This document shows, in pieces, positions 69 to 38,859 of a stretch of DNA of 42,856 bases (within the stretch, counting starts at the first letter, position 1; each line of letters begins with the position of its first letter). Under the pieces are notes generated by a model. It ran no database searches, had not been told where the DNA came from, and worked only from the letters and a program-made list of their open reading frames with translations. The translations under genes were made by a program, and so were the position numbers. Source of the stretch: a virus; the IMG/VR virus record IMGVR_UViG_3300029319_000118, positions 1 through 42,856 of that record; one strand, written 5' to 3'.

Positions 69-2068
69 TGAAAGTTTCAGTACAAGAAATATATAATTAT
101 TTAAGAGAAAAAGGTCTTTCTCACCAACATGCCGTTGGTATGGTAGCAAACATAAAAGCTGAAAGTGATTTTGATCCTGGAGCAATAGGTGACAATGGAA
201 CTTCTGGTGGTTTATTTCAACACCATGATGGTAAAGATGCTACTAGATTTACAGCAATGAAAGAATTTGCTGGTGAAAACTGGAAAACAAATTGGAAAGC
301 ACAAATTGATTATGCTTTAACGGAAAAAGATACAGAGTTGTATCTTTCTAAAAACTTTAATACATCAGAAGAAGCGTCTAAATGGTTTACTATAAATTGG
401 GAAAGACCAAAAAATGCAGATATAAAAGCAACTAGAAGAGCAGAGTTAATACCAGAATTAATTCCTTATGATCGTTTTAATTTAGATACTGACAAAGAAG
501 TAACTATAAATGGTCAAAGTTATGTTTTATATAGTAAGGATGACAAAACATACGCTTTAAGAAAAGATGTTTACGATAATGAAAAAGCTAAACATGCAGG
601 TGGAGATATTTATAATCACCCTTTTGCAAAGGAGCTTCCTTACAATGAAGAACAATTAAGAAAAAAAATAAATGAAGGTAGCATTATTTATGATCCATCT
701 TTAGAAATTAATATGCTTCAAGGTTTCCAGATTTCAGAGATAACTGAGGAAGAATTAAAAAAAGCCATAATAGAATCTTCTAAAGACGAAAGCATTTATC
801 CAGAAGACGCACCGTTTCCAGCTCCTGATCAGCCTGCAAATTTAAATGAAAATAAAGATGAAATATTAAATTTATTTTTAGAAAGTGAAAAAAGAAAAGA
901 AGAAGATGCTATTTTAGCTAAAGAAGGCGAAGGCAAAGGTGGGCCAAAGCCGTATGTAGCTCCAGAAGATCCAGCTCCGCTAGGGGAAGGCTTATATACA
1001 GATGATGAAGGAAATTATTGGCAAAAGGGAAGAGATGGAAATTGGAGGGTAAAATATTCTCAGTTTGTAAATCCTGATGATGAGTTTGATAAAACAAGAA
1101 AATATGGAGAGTGGCAAAGCTTAGAGGGAGAGAAGTTTGATGCACCGCATGAACCATCCTTAAAAGCAATAGACGAAGGTACTGCTGAAAACATTTTAAA
1201 GATGTTTGAAACAGATTCAGATGGAGATGGTGTAGACGATGGTTTTACTGATATAGAAAAGGGTGATGAAAGAGCTCCTTTAAGACTTGAAAGTGCTGGT
1301 TTATTTGAAAAACTAGGTGGTATTTCTTCTTTAATATCCGCGTTATTTGCACGTAAAGGTTTAAAGGAAGCAATGAAAGATATTGATATTCCTAATACAC
1401 CAGGATTATCACAAACTTTTAAAAGATATCTTTATGAGTCAGAGCAATTAGCTAAATCTGGAATGGATCTTAACGAGCAACAGGCTGTTCAACAAAATAT
1501 AGATATAGCTTATGAGCAAGGTATTGACAACCTCGTTAGAGGTACTGGAGGGGATAGAGCTAAGTTTTTAGCTGGGTTAGGAGTTTTAGACACGCAAAGA
1601 CAATCTTCTTTATTAAAAGCTGCTGCTGTTAATGATGAAATAAAAAGAAAAAATAGAGCTGCTTATGAAAAAGCTATGTATTTCAAAGAAAACTTTGAAG
1701 CAAACAAAGCTACTGCTGAAAGAAATGAAGAGTTGCAGGCTGCTTTAGCTAAAAAAGCTGCTTATGGTCAAATGGGTTCTAATGCTTTAAAAACCATAAT
1801 GGACAATATTGCTGCAGCTAAAATGTATGGAACGGGAAGTCCTTACGATAAAATGATACAGATGAAAATGTACAACATGGGATACAATCCATCTGAACAG
1901 GGAGGTAATACGCCAAAAATTCTTCAAGATGCTTGGGGTAGTATAAAAAATATCTTTTCTAAGAAAAGTTCATTGACTCCTGATGCAGGAACTATAAATC
2001 AGGGTTATATGGGGAATCAAGATGATATTGTAGACTATGGTGGTTATGAACAACAAGATATAGGATAA
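68..2068 (+). CDS. Internal virion / tail lysozyme-type protein, 666 aa
   Basis: The N-terminal ~130 residues match the phage tail lysozyme fold (Phage_tail_lyso type). A short helical start is followed by NIKAESDF with the candidate catalytic Glu at residue 32, then the GGLFQHH segment near residues 47-53 that lines the active site in this family. The likely role is local peptidoglycan cleavage during genome entry. The middle (about 250-370) is acidic and proline-rich, apparently a linker. Residues 383-391 read DSDGDGVDD, a calcium-binding loop of the thrombospondin/dockerin kind. The last third is alanine-rich and helical. It is coupled by TAATG to both neighbours and lies directly upstream of two other long proteins. 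That arrangement resembles the internal-core genes of short-tailed phages, so I infer an ejected virion protein. The lysozyme call is fairly firm; the exact virion position is inference. Confidence 0.75.
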   Translation: MKVSVQEIYNYLREKGLSHQHAVGMVANIKAESDFDPGAIGDNGTSGGLFQHHDGKDATRFTAMKEFAGENWKTNWKAQIDYALTEKDTELYLSKNFNTSEEASKWFTINWERPKNADIKATRRAELIPELIPYDRFNLDTDKEVTINGQSYVLYSKDDKTYALRKDVYDNEKAKHAGGDIYNHPFAKELPYNEEQLRKKINEGSIIYDPSLEINMLQGFQISEITEEELKKAIIESSKDESIYPEDAPFPAPDQPANLNENKDEILNLFLESEKRKEEDAILAKEGEGKGGPKPYVAPEDPAPLGEGLYTDDEGNYWQKGRDGNWRVKYSQFVNPDDEFDKTRKYGEWQSLEGEKFDAPHEPSLKAIDEGTAENILKMFETDSDGDGVDDGFTDIEKGDERAPLRLESAGLFEKLGGISSLISALFARKGLKEAMKDIDIPNTPGLSQTFKRYLYESEQLAKSGMDLNEQQAVQQNIDIAYEQGIDNLVRGTGGDRAKFLAGLGVLDTQRQSSLLKAAAVNDEIKRKNRAAYEKAMYFKENFEANKATAERNEELQAALAKKAAYGQMGSNALKTIMDNIAAAKMYGTGSPYDKMIQMKMYNMGYNPSEQGGNTPKILQDAWGSIKNIFSKKSSLTPDAGTINQGYMGNQDDIVDYGGYEQQDIG

Positions 2069-4164
2069 TGGCAGATTACGGAATAGTAGCAAAAATGTTT
2101 GGTGATGCGTTATTTTCTGGAGACAGATTAAACCAACAAAAAGCTTATGCTGATCAGCAGTTAATGCTGGCAGAGCAAATGGAAAGAGACAATCAAAAAA
2201 ATATGCAAGCCCAAGAGGCTTTGAGAAAACAAAAAAACCTACTAATGGAAGCTGCTATGCAGGCTTCAGTAAGACATGTAGATAGACAACAATATGAAAG
2301 TTTTATAGATCAGGGTTATGAAGATTTAATGACCGATATAAAAAACAATCATCATGGAAATTTTCAATCTTGGTTAAACTTTGTAGATGGAAATGGTAAT
2401 AATGGTTATGATAAATTAGATCAACTTGTAAACAACCCAGGTATAGCAAATTGGAATGAAAGACAAGAGTCTAATGCTAAGTGGATGCAAAATTATTTAA
2501 CAGCAGCCACTGACCCTGCAAAAGCACATTTAATTAGCAGACAAGATCATTCTAAGTATGCAGCGTTTAAGCAAGAAACTAAATCAGAAAAACCCACACT
2601 GCATGAATTAGGTGCGTTTAGCGGATTAAAAGCAGAGCTAGACCATGGTTATTTAGATGAAATGACAATAGCTGATGAGGCTACATGGATGGACGCTGCC
2701 TATCATAATGGAAACGCAAAAAAAGTAGCTAGAAATATTATGTTAGATACTGGCATGAGTCAAGATCAAGTTCTTCAATTGTTTGACGGAAGCCCAGAAG
2801 GAAATCAGTTTTTAGCGACATACATGCAATCTAATTATGGACAGATAGGAGAAAGAGGAAAGAAAGAGCTTGAGCCTACTATAGCTATGGAATATGCTAA
2901 AGGTTTAAAATCTTTACCAAATCTAGGTAATGATTGGAGTGGAGATTACCAACAAATGATGGACCAATCAGGAGCATCGCTTAATTGGAATCTTTTAGGA
3001 ATGGACGAGGGCAGTAGAATGTCGTGGACAGGATTTGCTAATAAGCAAGAAAAAAGAGTAAAAGGTTCTGCTGAAATAATTACAGACAATAATTTACAAT
3101 TAAGTACACTACAATCTGTACTTGGCAATAAAGTAAGTATAAATAAAGATGGAAGTATTACTCTTACTGGAATAGACATGTTAAGAGAAGGAAATGGAGT
3201 TTATACTGAAAATGGTAACAGATTAACAACTGACGAGTTGGCTACAACATCAGGGCTTCTTACTTCAATAGGTGCTGGTGCAGGAGCTGGAGCTGGTGGT
3301 GGTGCATTAGTGGGTGGTGGTGTTTTAAGTATTCCTGCCTCAGTTATAGGGGGTGTAGTAGGCGGTGTGTCAGGTGGTCTTGCTTATTACGGGGCTACAG
3401 AGCAACAAGATATGGATCTTGAATTTAATGGTTTTTATATTGCTAATAAATGGACGCACGTTGATGATAATGGAAACACTACTGATCAATTAGCAATGGA
3501 ATGGAAAAATCCTGAAGATCCAAAAGCAAGAGATTATAACGATTTATACGGAGGAAGTACTAGTAAGCCAGTTATGGTTATTGAAATGAGAGACAAAGAG
3601 ATTTTTGATGATGTGTATTATTTAGAGATAGAGTTAAATCAATCCGTATTAGCCAATATAAATAATGCTAATAAAGATATAAATACACAATTAAAGAATA
3701 ACGCCAATGCTGGAGAAAATTTAGAGGTAAGAATGAAGCGACAAAAACGCAACATGTTAGCTACACAAAAATCTGCAGAAATGTTATCTAAAAGGTTTGG
3801 TGGTGGTGATATAACAGCAGTTGATAATATTGTTAAATATTTTGCAGAACCGATAAATACTCACGCAACTGCTTTGGGGGTTGATAAAAAAGCAATACCT
3901 TTGATTTTGGCTGAAATTATGGTGACTTCTGAAAAAGATCCAGAAGGTAATGATTATACGCCAATGCAAACTGGACAATTGATACAACAAAAAATACAAA
4001 ATTTACCAAACATATTACAACAACCTAGCTATTCAGCTTGGTTAGATGCTTTTAAGAGTGGTGATAATACAGCTATATCTCAAATGTATAATATGGGGTA
4101 TGACCAAAAGACTAAAACCGAAATTTACACATATGCTAAAATGTTTAGCAATTTAATGAAATAA
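2068..4164 (+). CDS. Putative internal virion protein with glycine-zipper segment, 698 aa
   Basis: No family was recognised with certainty. The first ~100 residues are Gln-rich and helical. Around residues 395-440 lies a long Gly/Ala/Val stretch (repeated GAGAG, GGG and GGVVGG) flanked by charged residues, a glycine-zipper type membrane-inserting segment. Such segments occur in phage internal or pilot proteins that cross the host membrane during DNA entry. The remainder is soluble and helix-rich. The start overlaps the previous stop by one base, and the giant protein follows 4 bases after its stop, so these genes are almost certainly translated as one unit. I infer an ejection protein; a minor tail protein is the alternative. 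Confidence 0.6.
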   Translation: MADYGIVAKMFGDALFSGDRLNQQKAYADQQLMLAEQMERDNQKNMQAQEALRKQKNLLMEAAMQASVRHVDRQQYESFIDQGYEDLMTDIKNNHHGNFQSWLNFVDGNGNNGYDKLDQLVNNPGIANWNERQESNAKWMQNYLTAATDPAKAHLISRQDHSKYAAFKQETKSEKPTLHELGAFSGLKAELDHGYLDEMTIADEATWMDAAYHNGNAKKVARNIMLDTGMSQDQVLQLFDGSPEGNQFLATYMQSNYGQIGERGKKELEPTIAMEYAKGLKSLPNLGNDWSGDYQQMMDQSGASLNWNLLGMDEGSRMSWTGFANKQEKRVKGSAEIITDNNLQLSTLQSVLGNKVSINKDGSITLTGIDMLREGNGVYTENGNRLTTDELATTSGLLTSIGAGAGAGAGGGALVGGGVLSIPASVIGGVVGGVSGGLAYYGATEQQDMDLEFNGFYIANKWTHVDDNGNTTDQLAMEWKNPEDPKARDYNDLYGGSTSKPVMVIEMRDKEIFDDVYYLEIELNQSVLANINNANKDINTQLKNNANAGENLEVRMKRQKRNMLATQKSAEMLSKRFGGGDITAVDNIVKYFAEPINTHATALGVDKKAIPLILAEIMVTSEKDPEGNDYTPMQTGQLIQQKIQNLPNILQQPSYSAWLDAFKSGDNTAISQMYNMGYDQKTKTEIYTYAKMFSNLMK

Positions 4165-4168
4165 TAGG

Positions 4169-7100
4169 ATGGCTATAAATTTAAATGAATTTTTTAACCA
4201 GGCAGCACAGCAATCTGCAGATCCTGGGGTAGAACAAGCTTTAACTCAATATGATGCTCCTCAAATAGGGGCATTTTCTAATGAGTCCATTAATTCATTT
4301 AACATGCTACAACAAGCACAAGCACAACAACAAGATGCTGCTGCTTTAAACGCTTTAACACAACAGGATAACTCATTTTTTACATCTTTAGTAGAGTCTC
4401 CACAACCTACAATGGGGCAAGATCCGCAAGCTTATTATACGGACCCAGAAGATGTAACTATGGATGAAGGGACAAGGGCTACAAATAGTTTAGTTGCTGG
4501 GTTTGGTCAATTATCTACACAGGTAGGTGATATGTTTACGTTTATACAATCTATAACTCCTGGCTCTAAATATTGGCTACCATATACTGATCCAATAGGA
4601 AACTTTTTTAGAAGCCCTGGAGAAGACTTAACAAATAAATTTCAAAACACATACGTTCCTAAAGAATTAGAAGAATTAACATTTTCTGATTTAGGAAATC
4701 CTATTTTTTGGACAGGTGATGTTGCTCAGCAAATACCAAACCTTATGGCTATGATGTCAGCAGGTGTGGGCGGGGCAAGGTTAATGAGTTCTTGGATGAC
4801 AAGACATGCGGCTAAACAAGTTGCAAAAGGTGCTGGTAAATCGTATGGTGTTGCTGTACAAGGTGCAAAAGGATTAGAAACATTAAATAAAGGTAAAGGT
4901 GTTTTTGGCTTACCTTCAATGTTTACTAAGGTTGGTAAAAAAGCAGATGATATTATATTAAGTGATGCTTTAGGAAAAGGTGTTGCTAGTACTGTTGGTG
5001 GTGGTTTAGGTTCTACTGTAATAGATGGAGCTATGGTTGCTGGTCAAGAATATCGCCACGCATTAGATATGGGTTTAGATCCTGAGCAAGCTGGTACTGC
5101 AGCTGCAGGTGTGTTTGTTGATAATGCTAAGTGGTTAGGAGTAAATATGCTATCATGGGGTATAACTTTTGGTAGATTGCCTGGTAGATTAGGCCTTAAT
5201 GTATTAAACAAACAAGGCTTAACTGGAGCGGCAGAGTTTGGTAGAAGAGCTGCAAAACTTACTGTTAATGTTGCTCCAAGAGTAGCTTTTGAATCACTAG
5301 AAGAAATGTATCAAGAATCTTATCAAGATTGGATACAAAAAAAGAATTTAGCGCACGTTCAAGGCAAAAGATTTACAGGTAAGAATGGGGAAGATTATGA
5401 GGGATTAGATGGTTATTTAAATTACTTTAATAGTAAAGAAAACCAAAGAACAAAATACGTCTCGTTTGCAACAGGATTACTTGGTGGTGGATTTGGTGGT
5501 ATTGTTAATTCCATGGCTAATAGACAGTCCGAGTTAGACAAACAAGAGGCTAGATTGAGAGATGGTCAAGAAGGAGATCTTGACGCACAAATAGAAAGTA
5601 TTATAATTGCTGCAGTAGAGGATGATGTGGCTCCAATGCTTATTGATTATTTAAATGAAATAAATACTGAAGGTAAGTTTGCGGATGGACAGTTAGAGGC
5701 TATGTTAGGAGCTATAGAGTATGTTCAGGAAAAGTATGATAATATTCCTGACTTTATGGATAAAGTTACTGGTGCTGGTAAAAACAGAATACTCGGAGCA
5801 AAAATTAAAATAGACAAAGCCAATAACTCTGTAAAAACTGAAGAAGAGTCTTTAAATAAATATAAGGAAGACCACAAAGGACAAGAGGAAACTCAAGAGT
5901 ACAAGGACAACGTTGCTTCTATGGAGCAAGCTTTAGAAAAAAGTAAAGAGGTTCGTGATCAAGTTGTTTCTTCTTTAGAAAAAGAAATATTACAGATTGA
6001 AAAAGAAGCGTTAGAAGAAATAGAAGCTTTTGAAAAATTAAGACCAGAGGTTGATCCTAAAGAAGTAGGAGAGTTAACACAAGAACAAAAAGAATTATAC
6101 ATTACTAAAGATGCTGAAGCTAAGGCAGAGAAAGAGGCTAAGGAGGAGACAAAAGAGGAAGAGCCTGGTGTTATAGAGTCAATAGGTAAAAAGGTTAAAG
6201 AGGTTTTTACTGGTAAAGAAAAAACAAAAGAAGAAACAAAAGAAGAAACAAAACCTAGTATAAGAGAGCAAGCTATTGAAAGAATAAAAAAACAAAAAGG
6301 AGAAAATGCGGTAATTTCTGAAGAAGAAATAGAAAACGAAATAAAAGAAATTAATAAAGAAGACAAAGTTGCGGATTTAATAACTGGGGCAGATAAAGCA
6401 AAAGAATCTATAGAAGAAGTAGATAAAAAATCAGATTCTGTACAAAAGGTAAATGAAGCTTTAAATAAAAAGTCAGCTAAAGAAGTTAAAAAAGAAATGC
6501 CTGAAGATGTAGATGCTGCTATTGATGTTGTAGCAAAAAAATATCAAGAAGGAAAAAATCTATCAAAATCTGATAATAATATATTTGACAACTACCAAGA
6601 TGAAGTAGTAGAGAGAGCTGACAAGATAGAAGAAGAAAGTAAAAAAAAAGTAGAAACTGAAGTAACACCAGAGGTTACAGAAGAGGGTGAGGTTGAGGTA
6701 AAAGAAGATGATAGTAAAATAGAACCTAAAACTCAAAAGAAAAAAGCCGATCCTAAAAAAGCAAAAACAAAACCTGAAACTAAAGAAGAAAAAGAACAGG
6801 TTGAGCAAATACAAGAGCTAGCTGACAAGTATAAAATACAATCATTATTTGGTTTTTATAGATTACAAGAAAAGCTAGGTGTTCCAATTGGTTTATTAGA
6901 CCCACAAACAAGCCCTTACGGAGCTTCTATGGCAATGGAGGTAGCTGGATCTATATGGGTTACTCCAAATTCATTATACCAAGAACAAATAGTTCACGAA
7001 CTTACAGGACACATTTATTTTAGAATAAACTATGATAAGCCGTTAATACAAGAGTTTATCAAGAAGTTTATTAAAACTAATGAATACGCGTTGCTCAAGG

Positions 7101-10100
7101 CACAGTATCCAGAGCTGTTAATGTATGAATGGTTTGGTAATGAAATGACATTACACGAGGTTGTTGGTGATATTATATCTCGTAGTACCGATGCAAGAAG
7201 TCGTTTTAGAAATCTTGAACTGATTAACGAAAACAGAAAAGCACAAGGTAAAAGACCAATTAAGAAAGGTCCTGCTAGTGAGATAAATGAGCTTATACTA
7301 CAAAAGGCTACAGAATATTATGAGAATTGGAATAATGGTGTTTACAATACTATACCAGGACAATCACAATTAATACAAGATACACAGGTTTTATCTGATT
7401 TATTTACAAGAGCTAAAATTGGTAAGGTTTTGCCAGATAGCAAGCAAAAAGGTTTACAAGAAGAAGCTTGGGCTACTTATATATCTGATCCTGGTTCTGG
7501 TAATATAGATAATAGAGCAAGAGATATATTTGCTAATTTATTTAGCGATCCTAAACAAAATAAAGAAAGAGAAAGAACTGCAAAAAGATTTTGGAATATT
7601 GTTGGTAAACAAGGAGAGCAAATAAAAGATGAAGCTAAGAGTATTTTAGAAATGGGCAACGAAGAACTTTCTGGTTTATCATTAAAAGAAATGAAAGATA
7701 AACTTAGGGAGGTGTCGTTAACTATTACCCCTGAGCAATTGAGAAGTAGAAGGGTTACACAGTCTAGGATACAAATGGCTAAAAGAGATGTGTCTTTTAC
7801 AAAGGCGCAATCTTATATGAATGCTATATCTAAAGAAACTGGAGATTATGTCTTGTCGGAGTATAATAAAAAAGGCTCTGATATTAGAAAAGCATTAGAT
7901 GCTGGTACGTTTACCAAAGATATGCTTAAGCCAAAAATTATAGAAATATCTAATAAATATGGTAAAAATAATCCATTCTTTACTTATTCTGGTATAGATA
8001 AATATGATCAGATTATTGATGGTGTTATAAAAAATGTAATAGCAAGAGTTGAGTTTTTAAGGCCTGGAACTAAAATACATCAAATAGTACAGAAAGAAAC
8101 TATTAAAGCTCTTAAAGAAGCTGGAAATGCCTTAATAAAAGATTTAGGCATAGATAATGAAGACACCATTGAAGAAATGGTAAATGCTGGTATATCTATA
8201 TCTACAGATTTAACTGCACAAATATGGGGAATAGATAATATGGACATGCAAGATATGCAGGACCATGCTAATTCTCTTAGGGCGGAAAGTGAGTTAGGCG
8301 CTAGCTCTGACAATACTCTTGGAATGTATAGTAAAGAAAGAGATGAGTTAATAACTACTCTTTCAGCTATGATGTTAGATTTTGAACGTAGCTTCTTATC
8401 TACACAAGAAGGTCAAGAAACTAGGGCTAACAGAAAGAGAACTCCTTTTATGAAGGAAAGGTCTGCTGGTGTTTTATCTACACTTTTAATAACAGCGCAA
8501 ACTTCACCAACAGCTGACGCGTTTATTAAGTCTATAAGATCTAGTAAAAACCCAGGAGTAAAAGGGTTTGTAAAATATTTAGAGGGTAAGTTTGGTAATA
8601 AACCAATGCTTGTAATGAGTAAAAACTTACAAGAGGATATGAGGAGAAGGGGCTCTACAGATATATACACAGATTACTTTTTGTCAAATGTTTGGGTAAA
8701 CATGAAGAGTAAGACTCACGAAAACTTATTTAGCACTGTTGTAAAAGATAAAGAAGGAAGAGAAAATAATACGCTTGAATTGTTTAACGAAGCTGATGTA
8801 GCTTTTGAAGAAAAACAATTAATTAATGCCGTTATAGATAGATCGTTTAATTGGTATTATAGCACAGCAAAAGACAACCCTGTATCTAAAAGAAGTAATA
8901 CAGAAGCGATAAGAAGATCTTTAATAGCTGAAGCTAAAAGAATAAAGTCTAATATTGATAATAATATTGACAAAGATGTAACTAAAGACATTATAAACTT
9001 ATTGAGCGATATGTTTGATGTGTATGCTGTTGGTTATTTCAAATGGGATACATTATATAAAAGCGGTGTTACATTTAAAGGTAAAAATTACAACCTTGTA
9101 GATTGGTTTAGCAATGAAGGTATTAAGTATTTTAGGGAAAATACAAATAGAGTTAGTGTAAAATCGTTTAAAGATTTATTAAATCAAGTAGCTGTAAACT
9201 CTAGAGCGTTCCATTATTTTACAATGCTACATAATGCAGAAAACAATCCTACGAATACAATGAATACTCGTAGTTTTATACTTGATCAAAATGAAAGAAT
9301 AAACAATATGTTTGCTTTACAGCCAGGAGAGTCTTTGGTGGATTATGATCAAAGAATAAAAAGAGAGGGTAAAGCATTTGATTTTATAAGTTCTAATAAG
9401 CAAAATGAATATGCTCACAATCATTTTATGCCTTTTGAAATAAAAAACGGAATGTTTGTGCCTAAAAAAGTAAACCTTTTCTTTAGAGGAGGGTTGATTA
9501 CAGAGCTTAGAAATAGAGGGTTAAATTACACAAGAATGACTCCTCAAGAACTCATGGTGTCAGATATGTCTGATTTCTTTAACTCATTAAAAAGAGGTAA
9601 GGATTACAATCAGGGTGTTTCTGTTTTTGCAGAAAAAACAAGAATGTATTATGTACAATCGCCTATTTTTAACAATAAAGAAATTAAGGAAAGGTTAGCG
9701 TGGTTAGAGCAATATGATAATCAAACATATTTAGATGGTCAAAAAGTGTTACCTCTTGTTTCAGGAGGTAAGTTTGATGTAGCTGCTATAAATAAAGAAG
9801 TAGAGTTAATTAAAAAACACATGCTTAATCAAAAGCATTTATATATTAACAATACAGCGTTTAATGGATTTTTTGACAAAAAAGGAAACTTTACAAAGCA
9901 AGCAGATAAACGAATTGCTTTATATGTAAAGAACTATATGATTAATTCTTTTTCTGCTCAAAGACAATTTATTGGAGACCATAGTCAGTTTAAAAGTGAA
10001 AATGATTACACTGTTCGTGCTGCAGGAGCAATAGCTAGAAAAACAACTTCTGACAATAACATTACTTTAGATGTTACTATATTAAAAGAAGATGACCAGG

Positions 10101-13100
10101 AAGACGGTCAGGGTTATATGCTGTATGAAGACTTAGCTGAAGAATCAGCGGCATTTGGGTTAAACCTTATGCGTAATGAAACAGATACAGCTAAACATCT
10201 TAAATATGTGTATTACGGCCAAGATTTAAGAGCTTATGAAGACAGATTAAATAACGATGTGTTTGGGCCTAATTCTTCTGTTTATCTTAAAGGTAATGTA
10301 ATTGCTATAACTCCAGAGATGGCTCGTAAAAGTTTACATTTAAGAAAAATAAAAGTACACTTAGAACAAAGAAAAGCTGATTTAGCAAAAAGTGGTAAAG
10401 GTAAAATAAGAGTAGTAGCATATAACGCAAGTGCTGTAAAAGCGTTTCCAATGAATATAGAGGAGTTTTCTATTGATGTTAACTCTACTAGACAAGAAAG
10501 AATGTCTGTTCTTAATAAGATGTATATAGATAATAACGGCCAATACAAAGGATTAGACGGAAATAACTTTGGGGTACAGTTACCATTAGATAAAGAAAAG
10601 TATACTGCGGTTATGGCATCGCAATCATACGCACAGCATCTTACAAACATAACATCTGAAAATGAGGAAATGAGTAGACTACTCAATATTGCTCACAGAG
10701 GTTTTGCAAGATCTATGCAATTACAATTATCAGAAACTGGAGTTCGTAGATTTTACGATATAGAAGAATACAACGATAAACAACAAGTTAAGCTAAATCA
10801 AGGTTTACTAAATAGTATTCACGAAAGTTGGGCTGGTACGCCAGTTGCTAACATGTCTTCTTACGTTAGTCCTTTCTTTCCAAAAGTTAATATGGTTAGA
10901 AATGCTATTTTAAATAAAATGCTTATTGAAACTGGTACTAAGATACAGGCTCCAGGAACAGTAGCATTTCAAATGACCGATAAAGGATTTGGATTAAACG
11001 CACATCAAAGATTGGGTGATTTAGATTATGCTTCTAAATTAGATGTTAGAGAGTTTGGAGAAGATTTAATAGTTTCAGAAGTTATTGTGCCTGCAAGTAT
11101 GAAAAAGAACTATAATGTAGGTGATGTTATTTTAGCTTCTCGTATACCTTCACACGGTAAAGCATCCCAACCAGTTTTAATTATTAAAGACTTTTTTGAC
11201 AACCAGGCTGGAAGTTTAATTTCAATACCTTACGCTATATCTAAAGTAATGGGTTCTGACCTTGATGGTGACGCTTTATTTGTGAACGGAAGACATACTG
11301 GTAGAAAGCTTAAAAAATCACAAGAAGCTTATAATAGAGGCTGGAATAGTGTAGTAAAAGTCTTAGGTAATAGTCAGTTTTTAGAAAATGAAACTAATAA
11401 AGCTATTGATCCTGATGTTGATGCGCAAATTGCTTTACAAGAGGTAGAAGATTTATATGGCAAAAGAAAAGGATGGGATACCGAATCTTCAATTATGTTA
11501 CCTATGGGTAGGCTTAGTGCATTTAATGAAAACGTACCTGCAGGTGGTATGATTGGTATTGCTGCTGTAATGCAAAGAGATTTAAATTATTTGTCACATT
11601 ACGAAGCAGAACTTGATTTTGCTATAAAAATAGGTGATAAACAAGCTTTATCTAAATTTACAGATGTAAACAACCAATTAGGATATTATAAGACCGCACA
11701 GGTTCTTAACATTATATTAGACAACCCTAAATATCAAACGGCTAGAAAGTTAGGATTTACATATCAAACTATAAAGCCTGCTATGTTAATGTTAAGAATG
11801 GGCTATACGTTAGGAGAGGTTGCTGCTATATTAAATAGCAAAGCAGCTATGAAGTATTCTAAATACGCTTCTGAAAGAACTGTTATATACAGTGATGATA
11901 AATCTTATTATACTCCAGGTCAAAAAGCTGTAATGGAATATTTATCTGATTTAGAGTCTGGATCGTTTGCTGGCACTAATATAGATAACTCAATAGATTT
12001 TATAAATGAAAAAAGTAGATTAATACCTTTTTCACAGCAAAGCTATATTAAAGAAGTTAATGAAGTTTTGAAAATAAACAAAAATGACGTTATAAGTATT
12101 GACGTTAGAGCATTAGCTGCAGACAATATTAATTCTAATATAGAAGTTATAAGATTATTAGATGCTTTAAATAAAGTTGGTACTGAAGTTTTTAATGCGG
12201 GTAGAGTTATTGGTGCTTATGGTTTGAAAATACAAAATGGATTTGAAATAGATAAGCTTCTTAACGATTACAATAAGGTGGGAACTAAAGATTCTTTATT
12301 TAAAGAGGGTAGTTTAGAAAACTATCGTAGAGATCCGTTAGTAAAACAAAATATTTCTGTATTAAATCAAATAAAAAATTTAGACAGAATTACAAACTTA
12401 CAATATTCTTCTGAGTCAGTAGCCGTTCAAAAAGCAATGAATGATTATGTTATGCCTGACATGGAAAACATATTTGAAAAATCTCCTGTTAACGTTAGAA
12501 ATTACCAACTATTTAGAATGCGCAATGAACTTAGTGTTTTAGAAGGAATGCAAAGTAAAGATTTATTGTATGCACAAATAAAATCTTTAGTAGAGCAGAA
12601 TGCTAACAAACCTGCAGATGAGCAAAATTTATTTTTAACTAGTATTAGACTATATGATGATACTAAATCTGTAAATTTAAATACCAGATTATTTGATGCT
12701 TTTATATCTCCAGAAGATATAACAAGAATACAACAACATTTTAACGAGTTAGATAATCCTAACTCTATATACAAAGGAACTCAATTAATAGAGCAGCCAG
12801 ATGGCACGTCTTTAGAAATTTTAGCTAACAATGGTAATAATAGAAAGCTGTTTATACAAATGGACTTTTTACAAAATGGATGGATAGGAAGTAATTCTAC
12901 ATCTGTTGCCTGGTCGCCTAATGTATTTGGTAGCGAGTTTAACATAAATGAAGAGCTTTCAAATATGTTGGCTGACAACGATAGAAATGTTAGTAAAGAT
13001 GAGGCTGAAAATAAAGCTGTTAGTTTTTTAGAACAATATCCATATTCAGCTCCTAAAGGTAAAATGATTAGAGATGGAGAAGTTTATTTTGTGGACAATA

Positions 13101-15880
13101 GTAATAATTTTATTTTAAAGAAATTAAGAACAAATAACAAAAAGCATGTTGCTAAGTCATACAATGCAAATACTAAGCAATATGAAATATTTGTATATAA
13201 CCCACAAATACAAAGATATGAATACAAGGGAGAAACCAAGTTTAGCCCCGTAGATGCTGTTAATCATGATAAAGCTAATAAAGTAGTTGATTATAAAAAA
13301 AGAGCTTTTATGAGCTTAGAAGAAGCTAAAGCAGCTGCAGCAAGCTTAAGAAACAACAGTAGATTAAATAAGGCAAAAGTAAAATATGTAGGTGATGTTA
13401 AGGTGGGCCGTATAGAAAACCCAGCACAATTTACCGACAGCCCTTTAAATCAAGATCAATATTTCAAAATGAAAGGCATTACTCCTTACATGAGAATGGG
13501 AAGACAGAATAGTAATGATGTTGCTGTTTTTTATAATAATCAATATAATAGATATGTTCAAGATCACGAATCAGCATTAGCCTATTATAAAGAATTTATA
13601 GAAAATGATGAATATAAAAACTTTAGTGATGCAAGACTAACTGAAGACGCTCTTATATTTTCTAGAATGGACAAAGTAGTTCATGATAATATTATGGAGT
13701 TTATTGGAATAGAATTGGCAGAAAGAATTGAAAATAAACAAATTGCCACTATTGCCCAAATTGCAAAAGAAAATAATATATCATTGATTAACAATGACTT
13801 AGGTTCTTGGGAGTCTTGGTTAATATCTAATAATTTACACCAAACAAATGCTGACGTGCAGGGTATTGTAAATAAATTAGAAAGAGACTACCAACAATTT
13901 GCAAGAGAATGGAGAAGACAGGCAAAAGACATTAAAATGTTTGCTGATGAAATTATAAAAGAAAAAACAAAAGGATTAAGTGCTTTTCATATTATGAAAC
14001 GCAAACTACAAGGTAAATATGATATAATGGTTTGGGGCGGTCTTGTTAAAAAAGATACAACTAAAGACGGTAGAACCTATGTAAGGTTAAAAACTGAAGA
14101 TGAATTAGGAAGAATATCTGATGCTGAAAAAGTTTTTTATGATGGATTTAAATCAATAATCAAAAAGTATTATCCTGAAGCATCTGAAACAATGGTTCCG
14201 CACAAATCTATCGGAGGGTTTAGTGCTTTAATGAGACATGGATTGTTTGGATTATATAGATCTGGCATTAATTCTACAGCAGATATTAATCACATTATTG
14301 TAAAAGGCGAAAGGCCTGACGGTGTTACAGATTTTATGAAGTATAAAGAATGGGAAGCTATTTATAGTCAAGGATCTAATAATATTGAAAAAGCTAAAAA
14401 TATTACTAAGCTTAATGCTTTAAGAAAAAAAGCAATAGAGGCTGGTAAGCGTGGTGTAAATGACGATGGATCTCCAATAGTTAGTGGTGTATTTGAGAGA
14501 AAAGCATTCCAAGAGTCTGATGTATTTTTTAACTTTATAGATAGCAAAAAAGTGTCTGAATCAGATTTAGGAACAATGGATTTGCAGGAAATATTATTAG
14601 GAACTTTACATTCTAATATGTATAAATATGGCCTGAGAAATAATATGGATCAATATCTTGATGAGATTAAATTAAATGATAAAGGATATAGAGATATAGA
14701 TTACAATCAATGGGCTATTTCTAAAGGTTCTAAAGAGTTTTTAGGAATGCAAGCTAATTTACCATTAATTGATGGCGCTATACACTTAAACAAAATTAGA
14801 GGAAATAAGGAAATGGTTAAATACCTTAACGAAGTATGGAGAGATAATATACTTGGAGGTAAAAAACAAAAGTCTTTTGGTGGAGAATGGGATTGGGCAA
14901 TTAATAAAGTTGTTGACTTAACTACTATTGCGTTTTTAGGATTTAAACCAGCCATTGCGGTTGGTAATGTAATTATGGGTAAATATCAACAATTACGCAG
15001 TAGAGGTGGTAAAGAATTTATATTAGGAGAAAAAAGATTTTGGCAAGGATTTATGGGTGGAGAAAGCTTATTTAAAAGAGCTGGAGAGGCTTTAGATGAA
15101 AAAAGTTTATCTAAAACATTAGGAAGAAATAAAACTGCAGCAATTCTTAATGAGTTAATGAAGTTTGAGTTTTATCAATATGAAAATGTATCAAGCGTAT
15201 CCAAAAGTAATCCTTTATTTAGAGTTGCATTATTTCCTTTAGATCAATCTGAAAAATGGATACAAGGCGCAATGTTCTTGGGTATGATGACAGAAAAACA
15301 ATGGAATTCATATGATGTAAATGAAGATGGTGATCTAATTATAGTAGATAAAAAGAACGCATTAACTTCAGCGCAAATTAGAAAAATGAGTTACGAAGTT
15401 AAAAAACAACAAGGGTTTGGATACTCTCCAATGGATCAAAGAAGATTAAGCCTTTATAGTTGGGGAAGGGCAATGGGTCAGTTTAAAAGATATTTCTTTA
15501 CTCTTGGTAGAGAGCGTTTTGGTAAAGAAACAATAGACATGTATGGAAATCCAGACATAGGTTCTTATAGAGCTTCATTTGAGTTTGTTAAAGATATGTA
15601 TCAAGGAAAGAAATCTATGAAAGATTTTGACAAATTACCAGAGCACAGAAGAAAAGCTATTGAAAGATATTTAACTGGAGTAGCTTATGCTATAGGTGCT
15701 ATGATGATTGTTGGATTAACAGGAGACGATGAAGGAGACGATAATTATGTTCAATCAAGAATTCATTCACGATCTAAGAAATTTTTAGGAGATCAGAATG
15801 TATTTTTTAATCCACAAAAACTTATGTTTATGTCTAAGCCACCTGCAGTAGGATTTGTGCAAGACAGATTAGGATATTAA
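4169..15880 (+). CDS. Giant virion protein with crAss/YonO-type two-barrel RNA polymerase core and HEXXGH peptidase-like motif, 3903 aa
   Basis: A single uninterrupted frame covers 27% of the window. Seen in sequence, in order: glycine/alanine-rich hydrophobic segments (about 180-450); a Lys/Glu-rich coiled-coil linker (about 550-890); HELTGH at 943-948, the HEXXGH zinc motif of M49-type gluzincins, with EEAWA at 1098-1102 as a possible third-ligand helix; then a polymerase core. Core signatures are DGQGYM at 1979, conserved-type lysines K2012, K2041 and K2091 (SAVKAF), RIPSHGKAS from 2325, GSDLDGD with D2364/D2366/D2368, GGMIGIAA at 2459, and a helix starting NIILDN at 2514. The order and spacing match the large RNA polymerases of crAss-like phages and the YonO family, where DxDxD binds catalytic magnesium. 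The C-terminal third is unrecognised and has hydrophobic helices near 3583-3604 and 3831-3852. By analogy with phi14:2 gp66 and N4 it should be packaged and injected. The polymerase call is strong, the peptidase call tentative. Confidence 0.85.
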   Translation: MAINLNEFFNQAAQQSADPGVEQALTQYDAPQIGAFSNESINSFNMLQQAQAQQQDAAALNALTQQDNSFFTSLVESPQPTMGQDPQAYYTDPEDVTMDEGTRATNSLVAGFGQLSTQVGDMFTFIQSITPGSKYWLPYTDPIGNFFRSPGEDLTNKFQNTYVPKELEELTFSDLGNPIFWTGDVAQQIPNLMAMMSAGVGGARLMSSWMTRHAAKQVAKGAGKSYGVAVQGAKGLETLNKGKGVFGLPSMFTKVGKKADDIILSDALGKGVASTVGGGLGSTVIDGAMVAGQEYRHALDMGLDPEQAGTAAAGVFVDNAKWLGVNMLSWGITFGRLPGRLGLNVLNKQGLTGAAEFGRRAAKLTVNVAPRVAFESLEEMYQESYQDWIQKKNLAHVQGKRFTGKNGEDYEGLDGYLNYFNSKENQRTKYVSFATGLLGGGFGGIVNSMANRQSELDKQEARLRDGQEGDLDAQIESIIIAAVEDDVAPMLIDYLNEINTEGKFADGQLEAMLGAIEYVQEKYDNIPDFMDKVTGAGKNRILGAKIKIDKANNSVKTEEESLNKYKEDHKGQEETQEYKDNVASMEQALEKSKEVRDQVVSSLEKEILQIEKEALEEIEAFEKLRPEVDPKEVGELTQEQKELYITKDAEAKAEKEAKEETKEEEPGVIESIGKKVKEVFTGKEKTKEETKEETKPSIREQAIERIKKQKGENAVISEEEIENEIKEINKEDKVADLITGADKAKESIEEVDKKSDSVQKVNEALNKKSAKEVKKEMPEDVDAAIDVVAKKYQEGKNLSKSDNNIFDNYQDEVVERADKIEEESKKKVETEVTPEVTEEGEVEVKEDDSKIEPKTQKKKADPKKAKTKPETKEEKEQVEQIQELADKYKIQSLFGFYRLQEKLGVPIGLLDPQTSPYGASMAMEVAGSIWVTPNSLYQEQIVHELTGHIYFRINYDKPLIQEFIKKFIKTNEYALLKAQYPELLMYEWFGNEMTLHEVVGDIISRSTDARSRFRNLELINENRKAQGKRPIKKGPASEINELILQKATEYYENWNNGVYNTIPGQSQLIQDTQVLSDLFTRAKIGKVLPDSKQKGLQEEAWATYISDPGSGNIDNRARDIFANLFSDPKQNKERERTAKRFWNIVGKQGEQIKDEAKSILEMGNEELSGLSLKEMKDKLREVSLTITPEQLRSRRVTQSRIQMAKRDVSFTKAQSYMNAISKETGDYVLSEYNKKGSDIRKALDAGTFTKDMLKPKIIEISNKYGKNNPFFTYSGIDKYDQIIDGVIKNVIARVEFLRPGTKIHQIVQKETIKALKEAGNALIKDLGIDNEDTIEEMVNAGISISTDLTAQIWGIDNMDMQDMQDHANSLRAESELGASSDNTLGMYSKERDELITTLSAMMLDFERSFLSTQEGQETRANRKRTPFMKERSAGVLSTLLITAQTSPTADAFIKSIRSSKNPGVKGFVKYLEGKFGNKPMLVMSKNLQEDMRRRGSTDIYTDYFLSNVWVNMKSKTHENLFSTVVKDKEGRENNTLELFNEADVAFEEKQLINAVIDRSFNWYYSTAKDNPVSKRSNTEAIRRSLIAEAKRIKSNIDNNIDKDVTKDIINLLSDMFDVYAVGYFKWDTLYKSGVTFKGKNYNLVDWFSNEGIKYFRENTNRVSVKSFKDLLNQVAVNSRAFHYFTMLHNAENNPTNTMNTRSFILDQNERINNMFALQPGESLVDYDQRIKREGKAFDFISSNKQNEYAHNHFMPFEIKNGMFVPKKVNLFFRGGLITELRNRGLNYTRMTPQELMVSDMSDFFNSLKRGKDYNQGVSVFAEKTRMYYVQSPIFNNKEIKERLAWLEQYDNQTYLDGQKVLPLVSGGKFDVAAINKEVELIKKHMLNQKHLYINNTAFNGFFDKKGNFTKQADKRIALYVKNYMINSFSAQRQFIGDHSQFKSENDYTVRAAGAIARKTTSDNNITLDVTILKEDDQEDGQGYMLYEDLAEESAAFGLNLMRNETDTAKHLKYVYYGQDLRAYEDRLNNDVFGPNSSVYLKGNVIAITPEMARKSLHLRKIKVHLEQRKADLAKSGKGKIRVVAYNASAVKAFPMNIEEFSIDVNSTRQERMSVLNKMYIDNNGQYKGLDGNNFGVQLPLDKEKYTAVMASQSYAQHLTNITSENEEMSRLLNIAHRGFARSMQLQLSETGVRRFYDIEEYNDKQQVKLNQGLLNSIHESWAGTPVANMSSYVSPFFPKVNMVRNAILNKMLIETGTKIQAPGTVAFQMTDKGFGLNAHQRLGDLDYASKLDVREFGEDLIVSEVIVPASMKKNYNVGDVILASRIPSHGKASQPVLIIKDFFDNQAGSLISIPYAISKVMGSDLDGDALFVNGRHTGRKLKKSQEAYNRGWNSVVKVLGNSQFLENETNKAIDPDVDAQIALQEVEDLYGKRKGWDTESSIMLPMGRLSAFNENVPAGGMIGIAAVMQRDLNYLSHYEAELDFAIKIGDKQALSKFTDVNNQLGYYKTAQVLNIILDNPKYQTARKLGFTYQTIKPAMLMLRMGYTLGEVAAILNSKAAMKYSKYASERTVIYSDDKSYYTPGQKAVMEYLSDLESGSFAGTNIDNSIDFINEKSRLIPFSQQSYIKEVNEVLKINKNDVISIDVRALAADNINSNIEVIRLLDALNKVGTEVFNAGRVIGAYGLKIQNGFEIDKLLNDYNKVGTKDSLFKEGSLENYRRDPLVKQNISVLNQIKNLDRITNLQYSSESVAVQKAMNDYVMPDMENIFEKSPVNVRNYQLFRMRNELSVLEGMQSKDLLYAQIKSLVEQNANKPADEQNLFLTSIRLYDDTKSVNLNTRLFDAFISPEDITRIQQHFNELDNPNSIYKGTQLIEQPDGTSLEILANNGNNRKLFIQMDFLQNGWIGSNSTSVAWSPNVFGSEFNINEELSNMLADNDRNVSKDEAENKAVSFLEQYPYSAPKGKMIRDGEVYFVDNSNNFILKKLRTNNKKHVAKSYNANTKQYEIFVYNPQIQRYEYKGETKFSPVDAVNHDKANKVVDYKKRAFMSLEEAKAAAASLRNNSRLNKAKVKYVGDVKVGRIENPAQFTDSPLNQDQYFKMKGITPYMRMGRQNSNDVAVFYNNQYNRYVQDHESALAYYKEFIENDEYKNFSDARLTEDALIFSRMDKVVHDNIMEFIGIELAERIENKQIATIAQIAKENNISLINNDLGSWESWLISNNLHQTNADVQGIVNKLERDYQQFAREWRRQAKDIKMFADEIIKEKTKGLSAFHIMKRKLQGKYDIMVWGGLVKKDTTKDGRTYVRLKTEDELGRISDAEKVFYDGFKSIIKKYYPEASETMVPHKSIGGFSALMRHGLFGLYRSGINSTADINHIIVKGERPDGVTDFMKYKEWEAIYSQGSNNIEKAKNITKLNALRKKAIEAGKRGVNDDGSPIVSGVFERKAFQESDVFFNFIDSKKVSESDLGTMDLQEILLGTLHSNMYKYGLRNNMDQYLDEIKLNDKGYRDIDYNQWAISKGSKEFLGMQANLPLIDGAIHLNKIRGNKEMVKYLNEVWRDNILGGKKQKSFGGEWDWAINKVVDLTTIAFLGFKPAIAVGNVIMGKYQQLRSRGGKEFILGEKRFWQGFMGGESLFKRAGEALDEKSLSKTLGRNKTAAILNELMKFEFYQYENVSSVSKSNPLFRVALFPLDQSEKWIQGAMFLGMMTEKQWNSYDVNEDGDLIIVDKKNALTSAQIRKMSYEVKKQQGFGYSPMDQRRLSLYSWGRAMGQFKRYFFTLGRERFGKETIDMYGNPDIGSYRASFEFVKDMYQGKKSMKDFDKLPEHRRKAIERYLTGVAYAIGAMMIVGLTGDDEGDDNYVQSRIHSRSKKFLGDQNVFFNPQKLMFMSKPPAVGFVQDRLGY

Positions 15881-16658: not shown

Positions 16659-17897
16659 ATGCATATGGGACTACACATGGGGGTAGAAAATCCCTCGCAT
16701 CGCAAGTCCTTTGATCCTTTACATGATATAGGGGATTGTATTATGCATTTTGATTTTACAAAACACGCAACGTCTTATCAATTTACTAAAGCTACTGGAG
16801 TAAGTAGAATAAGTGGAGGTATAGCCTCTTCTGGAGCTTTAACAAATAATCAAATAAGATTAGCTTCTGGTTATTATTTTTCTATAGATACATGTCCAGA
16901 TGCAGGTGTTGTTAAAATAGACAGTGAATATTTTTCCTATTCAGGATATGATAATTCAGGAAACGATGTAACGTATTTGAATAATGTAACCAGGGCTATT
17001 AATCTTTCTTCTGAAGCATCTCACTCAGATGGAAGTACAATATTTCTAGTAGCTGGAGCATATCAAACGGCTCATCAGCACGGAGGAGGAGGAACGCCTG
17101 GCACAGGAACAGGTCTTAGAGATTTTTCTGATTGGACTACCACAGAATTAAGAATTCCAAATGAAGGTACTGCAGGAGGCTATATAACAGCACCTGAAGA
17201 CTCGGCTCTTAGACCAGCAGGCCATGTAACATCAGGTTTGGGGGCCGATCATAGACAGTTATTAGCATTTGACGGAACAAATGATAGACTGCCTCTTAAT
17301 GAACCAATAACAACAACAACTGGTGATTTTACCGTTGTTATGGTATTTAGAATGAATGGCGGCCCAAGCTCTGACTGTATTGTTGCGGGATCAAGTGGCG
17401 GTATAAATCAAATTAAAATTAATGCAAATACACTTTTATTTAGATGTAACAGTTCTGGAAGTTCAAATTCTTTTAATCAAATTAGAGCAAATAATACTAC
17501 TGCATACTCTGTAGGCAGCAGAGGGACACCTGTTGACAAAGGAGGTACTAGTAATTCTTTTTTAGATAATCAAAACGAATGTCTTATTTTAGTAAAAGAA
17601 AAAGATTCTACAGATAATAAAGAAAAAGTTTATTTGTATGATGTTAAAGATTTAATAGGTGAGGATTTATTAAATAGCTCAGGTACAAGCGGCCAAGCTG
17701 GTTATCCAGATAGCTCAGAAAACCCAAGCAACACAGGGCTTCAAATACAGCACATAGGGGCTTTTGCTAATAATAACTCTGATTACAGTGGAGAGGTGGC
17801 TGTAATATCACTTTACGACAAAGCTTTGACCGCTGACGAAATTGCTTTATTACAAGAGTATTACGATAACACATATCCAGATTTACATCATGAATAA
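16659..17897 (+). CDS. LamG/concanavalin-like adhesin, probable receptor-binding or fibre protein, 412 aa
   Basis: The C-terminal half (about 200-405) has the features of a LamG/ConA-like lectin sandwich: FDGTNDRLPL at its start, a GDFTVVMVFRM strand, and the closing ISLYDKALTADEIALLQEYY helix typical of Laminin_G_3 domains. The N-terminal half is Gly/Ser-rich and may anchor the protein to the virion. There is no signal peptide, which argues for a virion adhesin rather than a secreted protein. Several in-frame ATGs lie close together at the start (16659, 16665, 16677), and I cannot decide between them. A second, shorter LamG protein is at 20094. Probable role: binding host surface glycans. 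Confidence 0.7.
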   Translation: MHMGLHMGVENPSHRKSFDPLHDIGDCIMHFDFTKHATSYQFTKATGVSRISGGIASSGALTNNQIRLASGYYFSIDTCPDAGVVKIDSEYFSYSGYDNSGNDVTYLNNVTRAINLSSEASHSDGSTIFLVAGAYQTAHQHGGGGTPGTGTGLRDFSDWTTTELRIPNEGTAGGYITAPEDSALRPAGHVTSGLGADHRQLLAFDGTNDRLPLNEPITTTTGDFTVVMVFRMNGGPSSDCIVAGSSGGINQIKINANTLLFRCNSSGSSNSFNQIRANNTTAYSVGSRGTPVDKGGTSNSFLDNQNECLILVKEKDSTDNKEKVYLYDVKDLIGEDLLNSSGTSGQAGYPDSSENPSNTGLQIQHIGAFANNNSDYSGEVAVISLYDKALTADEIALLQEYYDNTYPDLHHE

Positions 17898-18918
17898 ATT
17901 AATTATTATAATATTTATGTTGTTTTGCGTTAATACACAAGCGCAAATTAAAAATTTATTTAAATTTTCTACTTTTTATATAGCAGCTAATGGAGGAACA
18001 TCTTTGTCTGATAAGGATGTTTTTTCTGTATCAGGACAATTGTCTAAAGATATTGTAGAAACTCCTTACGATTATAGTTTTATTGCTGGGGTTAGAAAAA
18101 TACAACGTTTTCAATACGAAGGAAACAAGCCATTTAAAGATGGAACAGAAACTTCTTATGGTGATGGAGCAACAGTTGGTAGAAATCCTTTTGAATATTT
18201 ATTTGAAATTGATTACAAAAGGCAAGAGGGTAATGAGTATATAGATCAAAATCATTTTTTAAGATACATAAAACCAAAATGGTTAGCTAAAGTAGAGTAT
18301 CTTAAAGATGGATTTGCTGATGTAGAATATTATCAAGCTTCACAAAGATTAAGGTTTAGAGGAAATAAAAAACTTTCTTTTAACATAGGTGCGTTACAAA
18401 GAATATCAGAGCCTTATGGGTACGATCCTTTAAATGAATGGTTATTATCTAACGGAAACCTTCATTATACTTATTTAGCATTAGAAGAAGGATATACTGT
18501 AGATGTGTTTAATTCTGAATATAAAGATCCTAATGGAAATATAGTTGCAACAAGTGCTGACGTTTGGAGTGAGGTTATTATACCTGAAGTATTATCTAAT
18601 TATGTTGAAAGAAAAAGAAATGAACTTCCCAATCAATGGGTATACTCTTTAGTTGCAGGGTTTGATTATTATACCTACAAGAAAAACTTTTGGCTACATT
18701 CATGGGGTAACTTTATGCCTTACCACTATAATGATGGTGGTCAATATTCGTATCATAATTTTAATAATGGAGAGCAATGGTATGATTATTCAGGGGGTAT
18801 AATATTTGGTTTGAAAATAAATAAACATTTAGGTACCTTTGTAGAAGGTAGATACAATAAATATTGGAATAGAGAATGGTACGATTTTAAATTTGGAATA
18901 AATTATATAATATTTTAG
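17890..18918 (+). CDS. Signal-peptide protein, possible outer-membrane beta-barrel, 342 aa
   Basis: The ATG at 17890 is preferred over an upstream in-frame start because it gives a clean signal peptide: Lys near the N-terminus, a run of Ile/Phe/Leu, then cleavage after NTQAQ. The mature protein alternates aromatic and polar residues throughout (many Tyr, Trp, Asn) and ends in FKFGINYIIF, a terminal aromatic residue as expected for a BAM-inserted outer-membrane strand. It overlaps the preceding adhesin gene by 8 bases. I infer insertion in the host outer membrane after infection, perhaps to block superinfection or alter permeability. No specific family was recognised. Confidence 0.55.
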   Translation: MNKLIIIIFMLFCVNTQAQIKNLFKFSTFYIAANGGTSLSDKDVFSVSGQLSKDIVETPYDYSFIAGVRKIQRFQYEGNKPFKDGTETSYGDGATVGRNPFEYLFEIDYKRQEGNEYIDQNHFLRYIKPKWLAKVEYLKDGFADVEYYQASQRLRFRGNKKLSFNIGALQRISEPYGYDPLNEWLLSNGNLHYTYLALEEGYTVDVFNSEYKDPNGNIVATSADVWSEVIIPEVLSNYVERKRNELPNQWVYSLVAGFDYYTYKKNFWLHSWGNFMPYHYNDGGQYSYHNFNNGEQWYDYSGGIIFGLKINKHLGTFVEGRYNKYWNREWYDFKFGINYIIF

Positions 18919-18920
18919 AA

Positions 18921-19196
18921 ATGGCAAAAGAACTAAACGAGGACACTGGTTTTAATATTAGTATAAAAACACTAATAGGAATAGGCTTTGCAATGGCAAC
19001 CTTAATAGGCATGTGGTTTACATTACAGTCTGATATTGCAGAAGCTAAAGAATTACCAAAACCAGATATAACTCGCATGGAGTTTGATATGAAAGATCAA
19101 AATATACGCCAATCTATTTTAAATACAGAAAAAAATGTAGAAAAATTAGAAGAGCGTATGATTAGAATGGAAGATAAAATTGACGCTTTAAGATAA
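18921..19196 (+). CDS. Small membrane protein with N-terminal TM and C-terminal coiled coil, 91 aa
   Basis: Residues 14-36 form one hydrophobic segment. The rest is charged, with heptad-like spacing from about 55 to 91, giving a membrane anchor plus coiled coil. That is the architecture of inner-membrane spanin subunits and of some holin accessory proteins. It is coupled by TAATG to the next gene, whose product carries an export signal, so a spanin-like pair is conceivable. No sequence family was recognised and the role is inference. Confidence 0.5.
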   Translation: MAKELNEDTGFNISIKTLIGIGFAMATLIGMWFTLQSDIAEAKELPKPDITRMEFDMKDQNIRQSILNTEKNVEKLEERMIRMEDKIDALR

Positions 19197-19552
19197 TGAT
19201 AAAATCAAATTCAACATGGAAAATATTTACGACATACTTATTAGTATTGCTATTATTGCTGGTTTGTGCTACGTGCTCAGCTCAGGTGACCGCGATGCAG
19301 TTTAATGCTAGCTGGAACGAACAGAATGGTGTAGAATGGTTTGAAGAGTTAGGAGATTGTGATAAAAAATCACACATGATAGATGGAAACGACATGCAAA
19401 AAAAATATAAAATAGCAGTTGTGCCAACAATAATAATATTTGACGAAGGGGAGGAGGTAAAGAGATTTCAAGCAGACCTTAGCTTTAAAATGCAGGCGAC
19501 AAGAAAAGAGATACAAGACTACATTGATGAGCTAATAATTAGTAAATTTTAA
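19196..19552 (+). CDS. Exported thioredoxin-fold-like protein lacking CXXC, 118 aa
   Basis: An N-terminal export signal (basic start, then TYLLVLLLLLVCATCSAQ) suggests periplasmic or lipid-anchored location; the cysteines before SAQ do not form a canonical lipobox. The mature part reads like thioredoxin: a MQFNASWNE strand/loop, then VVPTIIIFDEGEEV with the cis-proline strand. The redox CXXC is replaced by polar residues (NEQN), so disulfide chemistry is unlikely. It overlaps the upstream coiled-coil membrane gene by one base. It may be a binding or scaffolding fold in the periplasm. The fold call is moderate and the function unknown. Confidence 0.55.
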   Translation: MIKSNSTWKIFTTYLLVLLLLLVCATCSAQVTAMQFNASWNEQNGVEWFEELGDCDKKSHMIDGNDMQKKYKIAVVPTIIIFDEGEEVKRFQADLSFKMQATRKEIQDYIDELIISKF

Positions 19553-19553
19553 A

Positions 19554-19922: not shown

Positions 19923-19926
19923 AATT

Positions 19927-20100
19927 ATGATAAATTGGATTAACGGTTTTAAGGCTGGAAATAAAAAAGAAAAATATCAATTAGAATTTAGATTGGGAAC
20001 ATTTACTGTTTTTGAGCTTAAAATGTGTTTGTTTTGTGAGGAAGGATGCACAGCTAAAAGATTTAGATTTATGATTTTAAATATGGGATTTGAATGCTAG
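19927..20100 (+). CDS. Small hypothetical protein, 57 aa
   Basis: The start at 19927 is chosen because it follows the nuclease stop by 4 bases with an A-rich leader; a longer in-frame start overlaps the nuclease. The product has basic and hydrophobic patches with three cysteines (LFCEEGC and the terminal FEC). No family was recognised. Its stop overlaps the next gene by 7 bases, supporting translation. Confidence 0.45.
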   Translation: MINWINGFKAGNKKEKYQLEFRLGTFTVFELKMCLFCEEGCTAKRFRFMILNMGFEC

Positions 20101-21028: not shown

Positions 21029-21029
21029 A

Positions 21030-38858: not shown

Positions 38859-38859
38859 A

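Follow-up and report, generated by a model that had tools for sequence, protein, structure and literature searches.

A single-chain crAss-type RNA polymerase cassette, probably packaged in the virion, predicted in a 3,903-residue phage protein

What is the function of a phage protein of 3,903 residues, and does the virion carry it into the host? These questions are raised by the giant gene of the DNA stretch analyzed here (the window), which comprises positions 1-42,856 of the IMG/VR record IMGVR_UViG_3300029319_000118, a linear fragment with no end repeats; all coordinates are counted from its first nucleotide. A sequence-only reading had placed in this gene a two-barrel RNA polymerase (RNAP) of the crAss/YonO type, likely packaged in the virion. 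The frame was confirmed to be intact, with an ATG start and no internal stop codon, and every motif listed in that reading was found in its place: DGQGYM at residue 1979; lysines at 2012, 2041 and 2091; RIPSHGKAS at 2325; the GSDLDGD loop, whose aspartates are residues 2364, 2366 and 2368; GGMIGIAA at 2459; and NIILDN at 2514. Single-sequence searches of IMG/VR and the PDB with the giant protein returned no match, and because neither Pfam nor PHROGs recognized it, the identification of its core rests on alignments built in this work. The features discussed below are collected in Table 1.

Table 1. Features of the giant gene and of the two genes upstream of it, in window coordinates.
Feature	Coordinates	Strand	Residues	Basis or remark
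666-aa protein with tail lysozyme domain PF18013	68..2068	+		Pfam E 2.3e-17; position kept in relatives
698-aa protein	2068..4164	+		directly upstream of the giant gene in every relative seen
Giant protein, predicted fused virion RNAP cassette (gp67-gp66-gp65 equivalent)	4169..15880	+	3,903 aa	
N-module	4235..5563	+	23-465	homologous to N-terminal part of phi14:2 gp67 and cr8_1 gp18 / p-crAss gp45
E/K-rich low-complexity linker	5786..6838	+	about 540-890	
Zincin-like motif HELTGH	6995..7012	+	943-948	motif only
Two-barrel RNAP core, gp66 homologue	9599..12631	+	about 1811-2821	profile, predicted model, 6vr4 match
Probable first barrel (DPBB-B equivalent)	10064..10612	+	about 1966-2148	model strand order, conservation
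Probable catalytic barrel (DPBB-A equivalent)	10946..11287	+	about 2260-2373	holds RIPSHGKAS and GSDLDGD
Catalytic loop GSDLDGD	11252..11272	+	2362-2368	sequence, conservation
33-residue helix containing GGMIGIAA	11501..11599	+	2445-2477	model secondary structure
C-module	13925..15874	+	3253-3902	homologues: phi14:2 gp65 and p-crAss gp44 (C-terminus)

A tblastn search of 50,697 phage records with residues 1901-2667 retrieved only the catalytic subunits of crAss-type RNAPs and their relatives (best E value, 1e-6). An IMG/VR scan with an alignment that took in five crAss RNAPs yielded five contigs of the window lineage (31-56% identity), along with 75 loci at a greater distance. With this clade left out, a profile built from 65 related sequences matched the giant protein collinearly over residues 2011-2770 with an E value of 4.6e-29, compared with 0.06 for the best of 200 shuffled copies. 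The profile of all 70 sequences matched phi14:2 gp66 (2.7e-185) and Fpv3 gp32 (2.7e-113) and left elemo gp18 and phi18:3 gp123 unmatched. In the 70-sequence alignment, R1950, K2012, K2041, G2263, R2325, P2327, D2364, D2366 and D2368 were 100% conserved, D1979, K2091 and D2518 99%, and Q2152 96%; R1950, Q2152 and G2263 are additions to the residues picked out by the sequence-only reading.

An AlphaFold model of residues 1745-2760, built with 61 sequences, had a pLDDT of 80.8 and a pTM of 0.85. Its best match among solved structures was 6vr4, the gp66 protein of phi14:2 (E value, 2.7e-22; TMq, 0.60); plant RDR2 came next, ahead of gp96 (1.6e-4) and gp64 of phage P23-45. The solved matches of the predicted structure are the known two-barrel single-chain polymerases. 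A match of our profile A1 to 6vr4 is circular, gp66 being included in A1, and was excluded as evidence. The three essentially invariant lysines fall in the segment that is probably the DPBB-B equivalent, a label derived from the gp66 match, and the DxDGD loop lies before the last strand of the second strand group. The helix at 2445-2477 is a candidate for the bridge helix. On the basis of profile and model, we identify the core as a two-barrel RNAP of the crAss (phi14:2 gp66) type. The sequence-only reading is thus borne out as to a crAss-type two-barrel polymerase within a very long multi-domain chain; the positions it picked out (one D, three K, R-P, DxDxD and D2518) are 99-100% conserved, and its suggested comparison with gp66 speaks for two barrels, which are labelled here by strand order only. 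Its YonO label has to be dropped, since YonO of SPbeta was matched by neither profile.

The regions on both sides of the core also have counterparts in crAss-like phages. A clade-only profile of the N-terminal region (residues 1-480) matched phi14:2 gp67 (E value, 2.4e-8) and cr8_1 gp18 (3.4e-6), and a clade-only profile of the C-terminal region (residues 3250-3903) found phi14:2 gp65 (3.4e-7) as well as p-crAss gp44 at its C-terminus (6.2e-6). In the reverse direction, a profile of 39 non-clade N-module sequences gave a modest E value of 5.7e-6 for the window protein and 2e-13 for that of relative G005, and a profile of 66 non-clade C-module sequences gave 8.4e-20 for the window protein. Because the non-clade rows were recruited by an iteration that started from the clade, the reverse profiles are a consistency test and not fully independent. 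The model of the C-module was mostly helical (pLDDT, 72; pTM, 0.56) and had no match in the PDB. In the phi14:2 genome the order is gp67-gp66-gp65, with the catalytic gp66 between the other two, and since the N- and C-termini of the giant protein match the proteins that flank gp66, we read it as a gp67-gp66-gp65 fusion in genomic order. What is new, judged by these homologies, is that one chain holds the whole crAss RNAP cassette, in a lineage outside the sampled crAss families.

Four arrangements of the cassette were found across the IMG/VR loci and the isolates, in a survey that matched none of 60 decoys: three separate genes (phi14:2); an N-module apart from a fused core and C-module (p-crAss, cr8_1 and cr3_1); a fused N-module and core apart from the C-module (for example, contigs L015, L022 and L033); and all three in one. 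The last arrangement occurs in the window lineage, with chains of 3.5-4.1 kaa, and in contigs L021, L025, L029, L030, L050, L065 and L074, with chains of 5.1-5.6 kaa. In an RNAP tree with several long branches, the window lineage came out as a single supported clade with a long stem, and the remaining all-in-one sequences fell in other clades, so the fusion probably arose more than once. A split giant frame in relative G011 proved to be an assembly gap (a run of N) and not biology. The gp67 and gp65 proteins around the crAss polymerase have no known function; they are fused to the catalytic subunit in a fixed order in several lineages and would therefore be expected to act jointly with it and at the same copy number, both in ejection and in early transcription. 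The chain of the window lineage, from phages of about 65-67 kb, is the shortest and most compact natural form among those compared, which makes it a good subject for studying the packing, threading and refolding of an injected polymerase.

That the three parts are separate proteins in other phages, and that the stretch joining N-module and core contains an HExxH-like motif, raises the possibility that the giant is a polyprotein, cut during assembly or ejection by the zincin-like segment or by another protease. The segment had no profile match to crAss zincins, however. Its versions in relatives include HELGH and HEYAH, but the window and two relatives have a form with an extra residue (HELTGH or HEYTGH) that would break the HExxH geometry, so that protease activity is doubtful and we consider a polyprotein unlikely.

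The terminase-portal-capsid-tail block is absent from the window fragment. In the relatives (64,742-67,431 bp), this block consists of TerL (615 aa), portal (748 aa), major capsid protein (MCP; 479 aa) and a tail protein of 1.7-2.1 kaa, in that order, followed by the lysozyme gene, the 698-aa gene and then the giant gene. We put the genome at about 65-67 kb, which is an estimate because all relatives are classed as linear; the earlier impression of a compact genome, not obviously crAss-like, arose because the window is a fragment from which the structural block is missing. Across 90% of its length, the TerL of the relatives is about 30% identical to those of Crassvirales, and their MCP matches Crassvirales major head proteins. 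Their portal matches those of Fpv3 (E value, 2.2e-74) and cr8_1 (9.4e-27), and their large tail protein matches phi14:2 gp71 (9.7e-69). The genes for TerL, portal, MCP and the gp71-like tail protein, seen in the relatives and not in the window itself, follow one another as they do in Crassvirales. In a TerL tree without Crevaviridae, epsilon and zeta, and with some long branches, the lineage branched off on its own, with Steig-/Suoli-/Intestiviridae and Fpv3 on one side and elemo/Panino/phi18:3 on the other, and belonged to none of the sampled families. The suggestion of a different phage group therefore holds in part: TerL lies outside the sampled named families, but both the structural genes and the RNAP cassette have relatives in Crassvirales. 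Environmental phages that form outgroups to the crAss-like assemblage by TerL were described by Yutin et al. (PMC7886860), and the window lineage may be one of them. The gp66-type polymerase is thereby extended to phages placed by the TerL tree outside the sampled named crAss families. No DNA match to the window was found in phage records, and a search of 84,980 genomes of bacteria and archaea gave no relative.

Several other observations were made in the window and in these phages. Elemo and phi18:3 (loci L103 and L105) share TerL and portal ancestry with the lineage, and in both a giant virion protein (3,694 and 1,935 aa, respectively) ends the structural block; these proteins were profile-tested as RNAP carriers, and no RNAP was detected. 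The 67,150-bp contig G009 (L136-L139) has homologues of window 17842-24422 at both ends, as paralogues or a partly duplicated end. Window 30788-31645 (minus strand) encodes a spore photoproduct lyase-like radical SAM protein (PF20903; E value, 4.6e-26) within the phage replication block. Window 37374-40122 (minus strand) contains adjoining genes for a 494-aa protein and a peptidase-like 420-aa protein; the former matches phi38:1 gp037, whose neighbor gp038 is a peptidase, and recurs at many places in phage genomes of 630-735 kb.

Is the giant protein carried in the virion? The GenBank notes for phi14:2 state that gp65, gp66 and gp67 were all detected by virion MS/MS, and crAss001 carries gp47, gp49 and gp50 inside its capsid; its capsid and tail cargo as a whole, gp45-gp47 with gp49 and gp50, has to unfold in part on the way out (PMC10172136). 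In all relatives the giant gene lies within the structural block, behind the lysozyme and 698-aa genes. Homology and synteny thus indicate that the giant is probably packaged in the virion and injected. The 666-aa lysozyme-domain protein is probably a co-ejected, envelope-breaching protein, and the 698-aa protein, for which no named homologue was found, is probably an ejection or channel protein, as its synteny suggests. Two-barrel RNAPs of both kinds, virion and non-virion, occur in P23-45 (PMC10770324), and the giant might instead be an active polymerase that is made during infection and stays out of the virion, like P23-45 gp64. The homology of all three of its parts to phi14:2 virion proteins and the place of its gene in the late structural block, after the lysozyme and ejection-like genes, make this distinctly improbable.

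The core shares only 15-18% identity with named RNAPs, and the fourth position of its catalytic loop is Gly instead of Ile or Val, as could be the case if the giant served in ejection or as a structural protein and its polymerase domain had lost its activity. However, every clade member keeps all family-invariant residues, and the same Gly is present in the P23-45 vRNAP (DFDGD, PMC10770324); we regard an inactive polymerase as very improbable. A chance or unrelated DxDGD can be dismissed, even though the motif is short and 14 of 2,000 shuffles of the giant protein held GSDxDxD, because the profile match is collinear over about 750 residues and the structural match to 6vr4 points to the gp66 family rather than to a different one.

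Our preferred reading, to which we assign a probability of roughly 0.85, is that the fused gp67-gp66-gp65 chain is packaged, is ejected and transcribes the first phage genes. By homology with the crAss001 cargo and by analogy with the N4 polymerase, the chain would be packed inside the capsid and leave by way of the tail, together with the lysozyme protein and the 698-aa protein, a passage in which the E/K-rich linker would suit threading; it would then refold within the cell and start transcription at once, with the DxDGD aspartates holding Mg2+. Such a protein would allow the virus to begin reading its genes the moment its DNA arrives in the cell. At TAnnTTTG promoters, the host RNAP would probably take over many other genes.

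The TAnnTTTG sequence, the Bacteroidota -7 element, was found upstream of genes 21 times, compared with 5.3 ± 2.2 in shuffles. Given this enrichment in the lineage, much of the genome is probably read by the host RNAP; in the intergenic regions no vRNAP promoter common to the clade emerged, and the host-type TAnnTTTG is what stands out. The 1,134-aa protein encoded at window 21018-24422 has a weak C-terminal match to a type IX sorting domain (PF18962; E value, 6e-4, below the cut-off) as well as marine phage tail-like matches. The enriched promoter element and the weak sorting-domain match suggest that the host probably belongs to the Bacteroidota (gut and aquatic bacteria). At window 42490-42553, a noncoding segment of about 64 nt is nearly identical to L099 15316-15381 of a relative whose neighboring proteins share only about 32% identity; it had no Rfam match and is a candidate early promoter, origin or small RNA.

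A more far-reaching picture, which we put forward tentatively as a possible but doubtful one, is that of a family-level lineage outside the named Crassvirales with a one-chain injected transcription machine, in which the N-module sits at the envelope channel and the core at its cytoplasmic mouth, transcribing the DNA inward. If true, this channel-bound transcribing chain would be a two-barrel counterpart of the N4 ejection polymerase.

The packaged and ejected fusion that we favor can be compared with several known systems. Cellulophaga phage phi14:2 (Crassvirales, Steigviridae; PDB 6vr4) has a core with all the invariant residues, the same flanking proteins in the same order, and packaging, which is probable for the giant; it differs in having three proteins instead of one chain, a DFDID instead of a DLDGD loop, and a genome of 100 kb. 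In p-crAssphage (Carjivirus communis), gp45 comprises the N-module and a zincin motif and gp44 the core and C-module, so that two proteins correspond to one. Flavobacterium phage Fpv3 (Fipvunavirus), which was earlier grouped near crAss-like phages by TerL (PMC7886860), has the core in gp32 (4,287 aa); unlike the giant, it carries the C-module on a separate gene (gp33), its N-module was not detected, and its genome is 88 kb. In the record of this F. psychrophilum phage, gp32 (L104 33939-46802) is labelled "virion structural protein" with its crAss-type RNAP core unannotated, and the C-module of the next gene, gp33 (L107 833-5623), is not annotated as such. The all-in-one IMG/VR contigs listed above likewise have the N-module, core and C-module in one frame, but in longer chains and in other RNAP clades.

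Thermus phage P23-45 gp96, in which the RNAP is fused to the tail tape measure protein, resembles the giant as a two-barrel RNAP in a giant virion protein, which in P23-45 also has metallopeptidase and membrane segments (PMC10770324). Its RNAP is N-terminal, with a flat structure without a clamp, its phage is long-tailed and its structural match is weaker, whereas the RNAP of the giant is central and flanked by crAss cassette modules, an arrangement unlike a tape-measure fusion. Coliphage N4 vRNAP (gp50) works in a way like that proposed for the giant, as a single chain with a three-part layout and two ejection partners. The N4 RNAP is a single-subunit T7-like enzyme, not a two-barrel one, and the two systems are convergent, not homologous. 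The N4 chain of about 3,500 aa consists of an N-domain, an RNAP and a C-domain and is ejected with two other proteins (PMC12633501).
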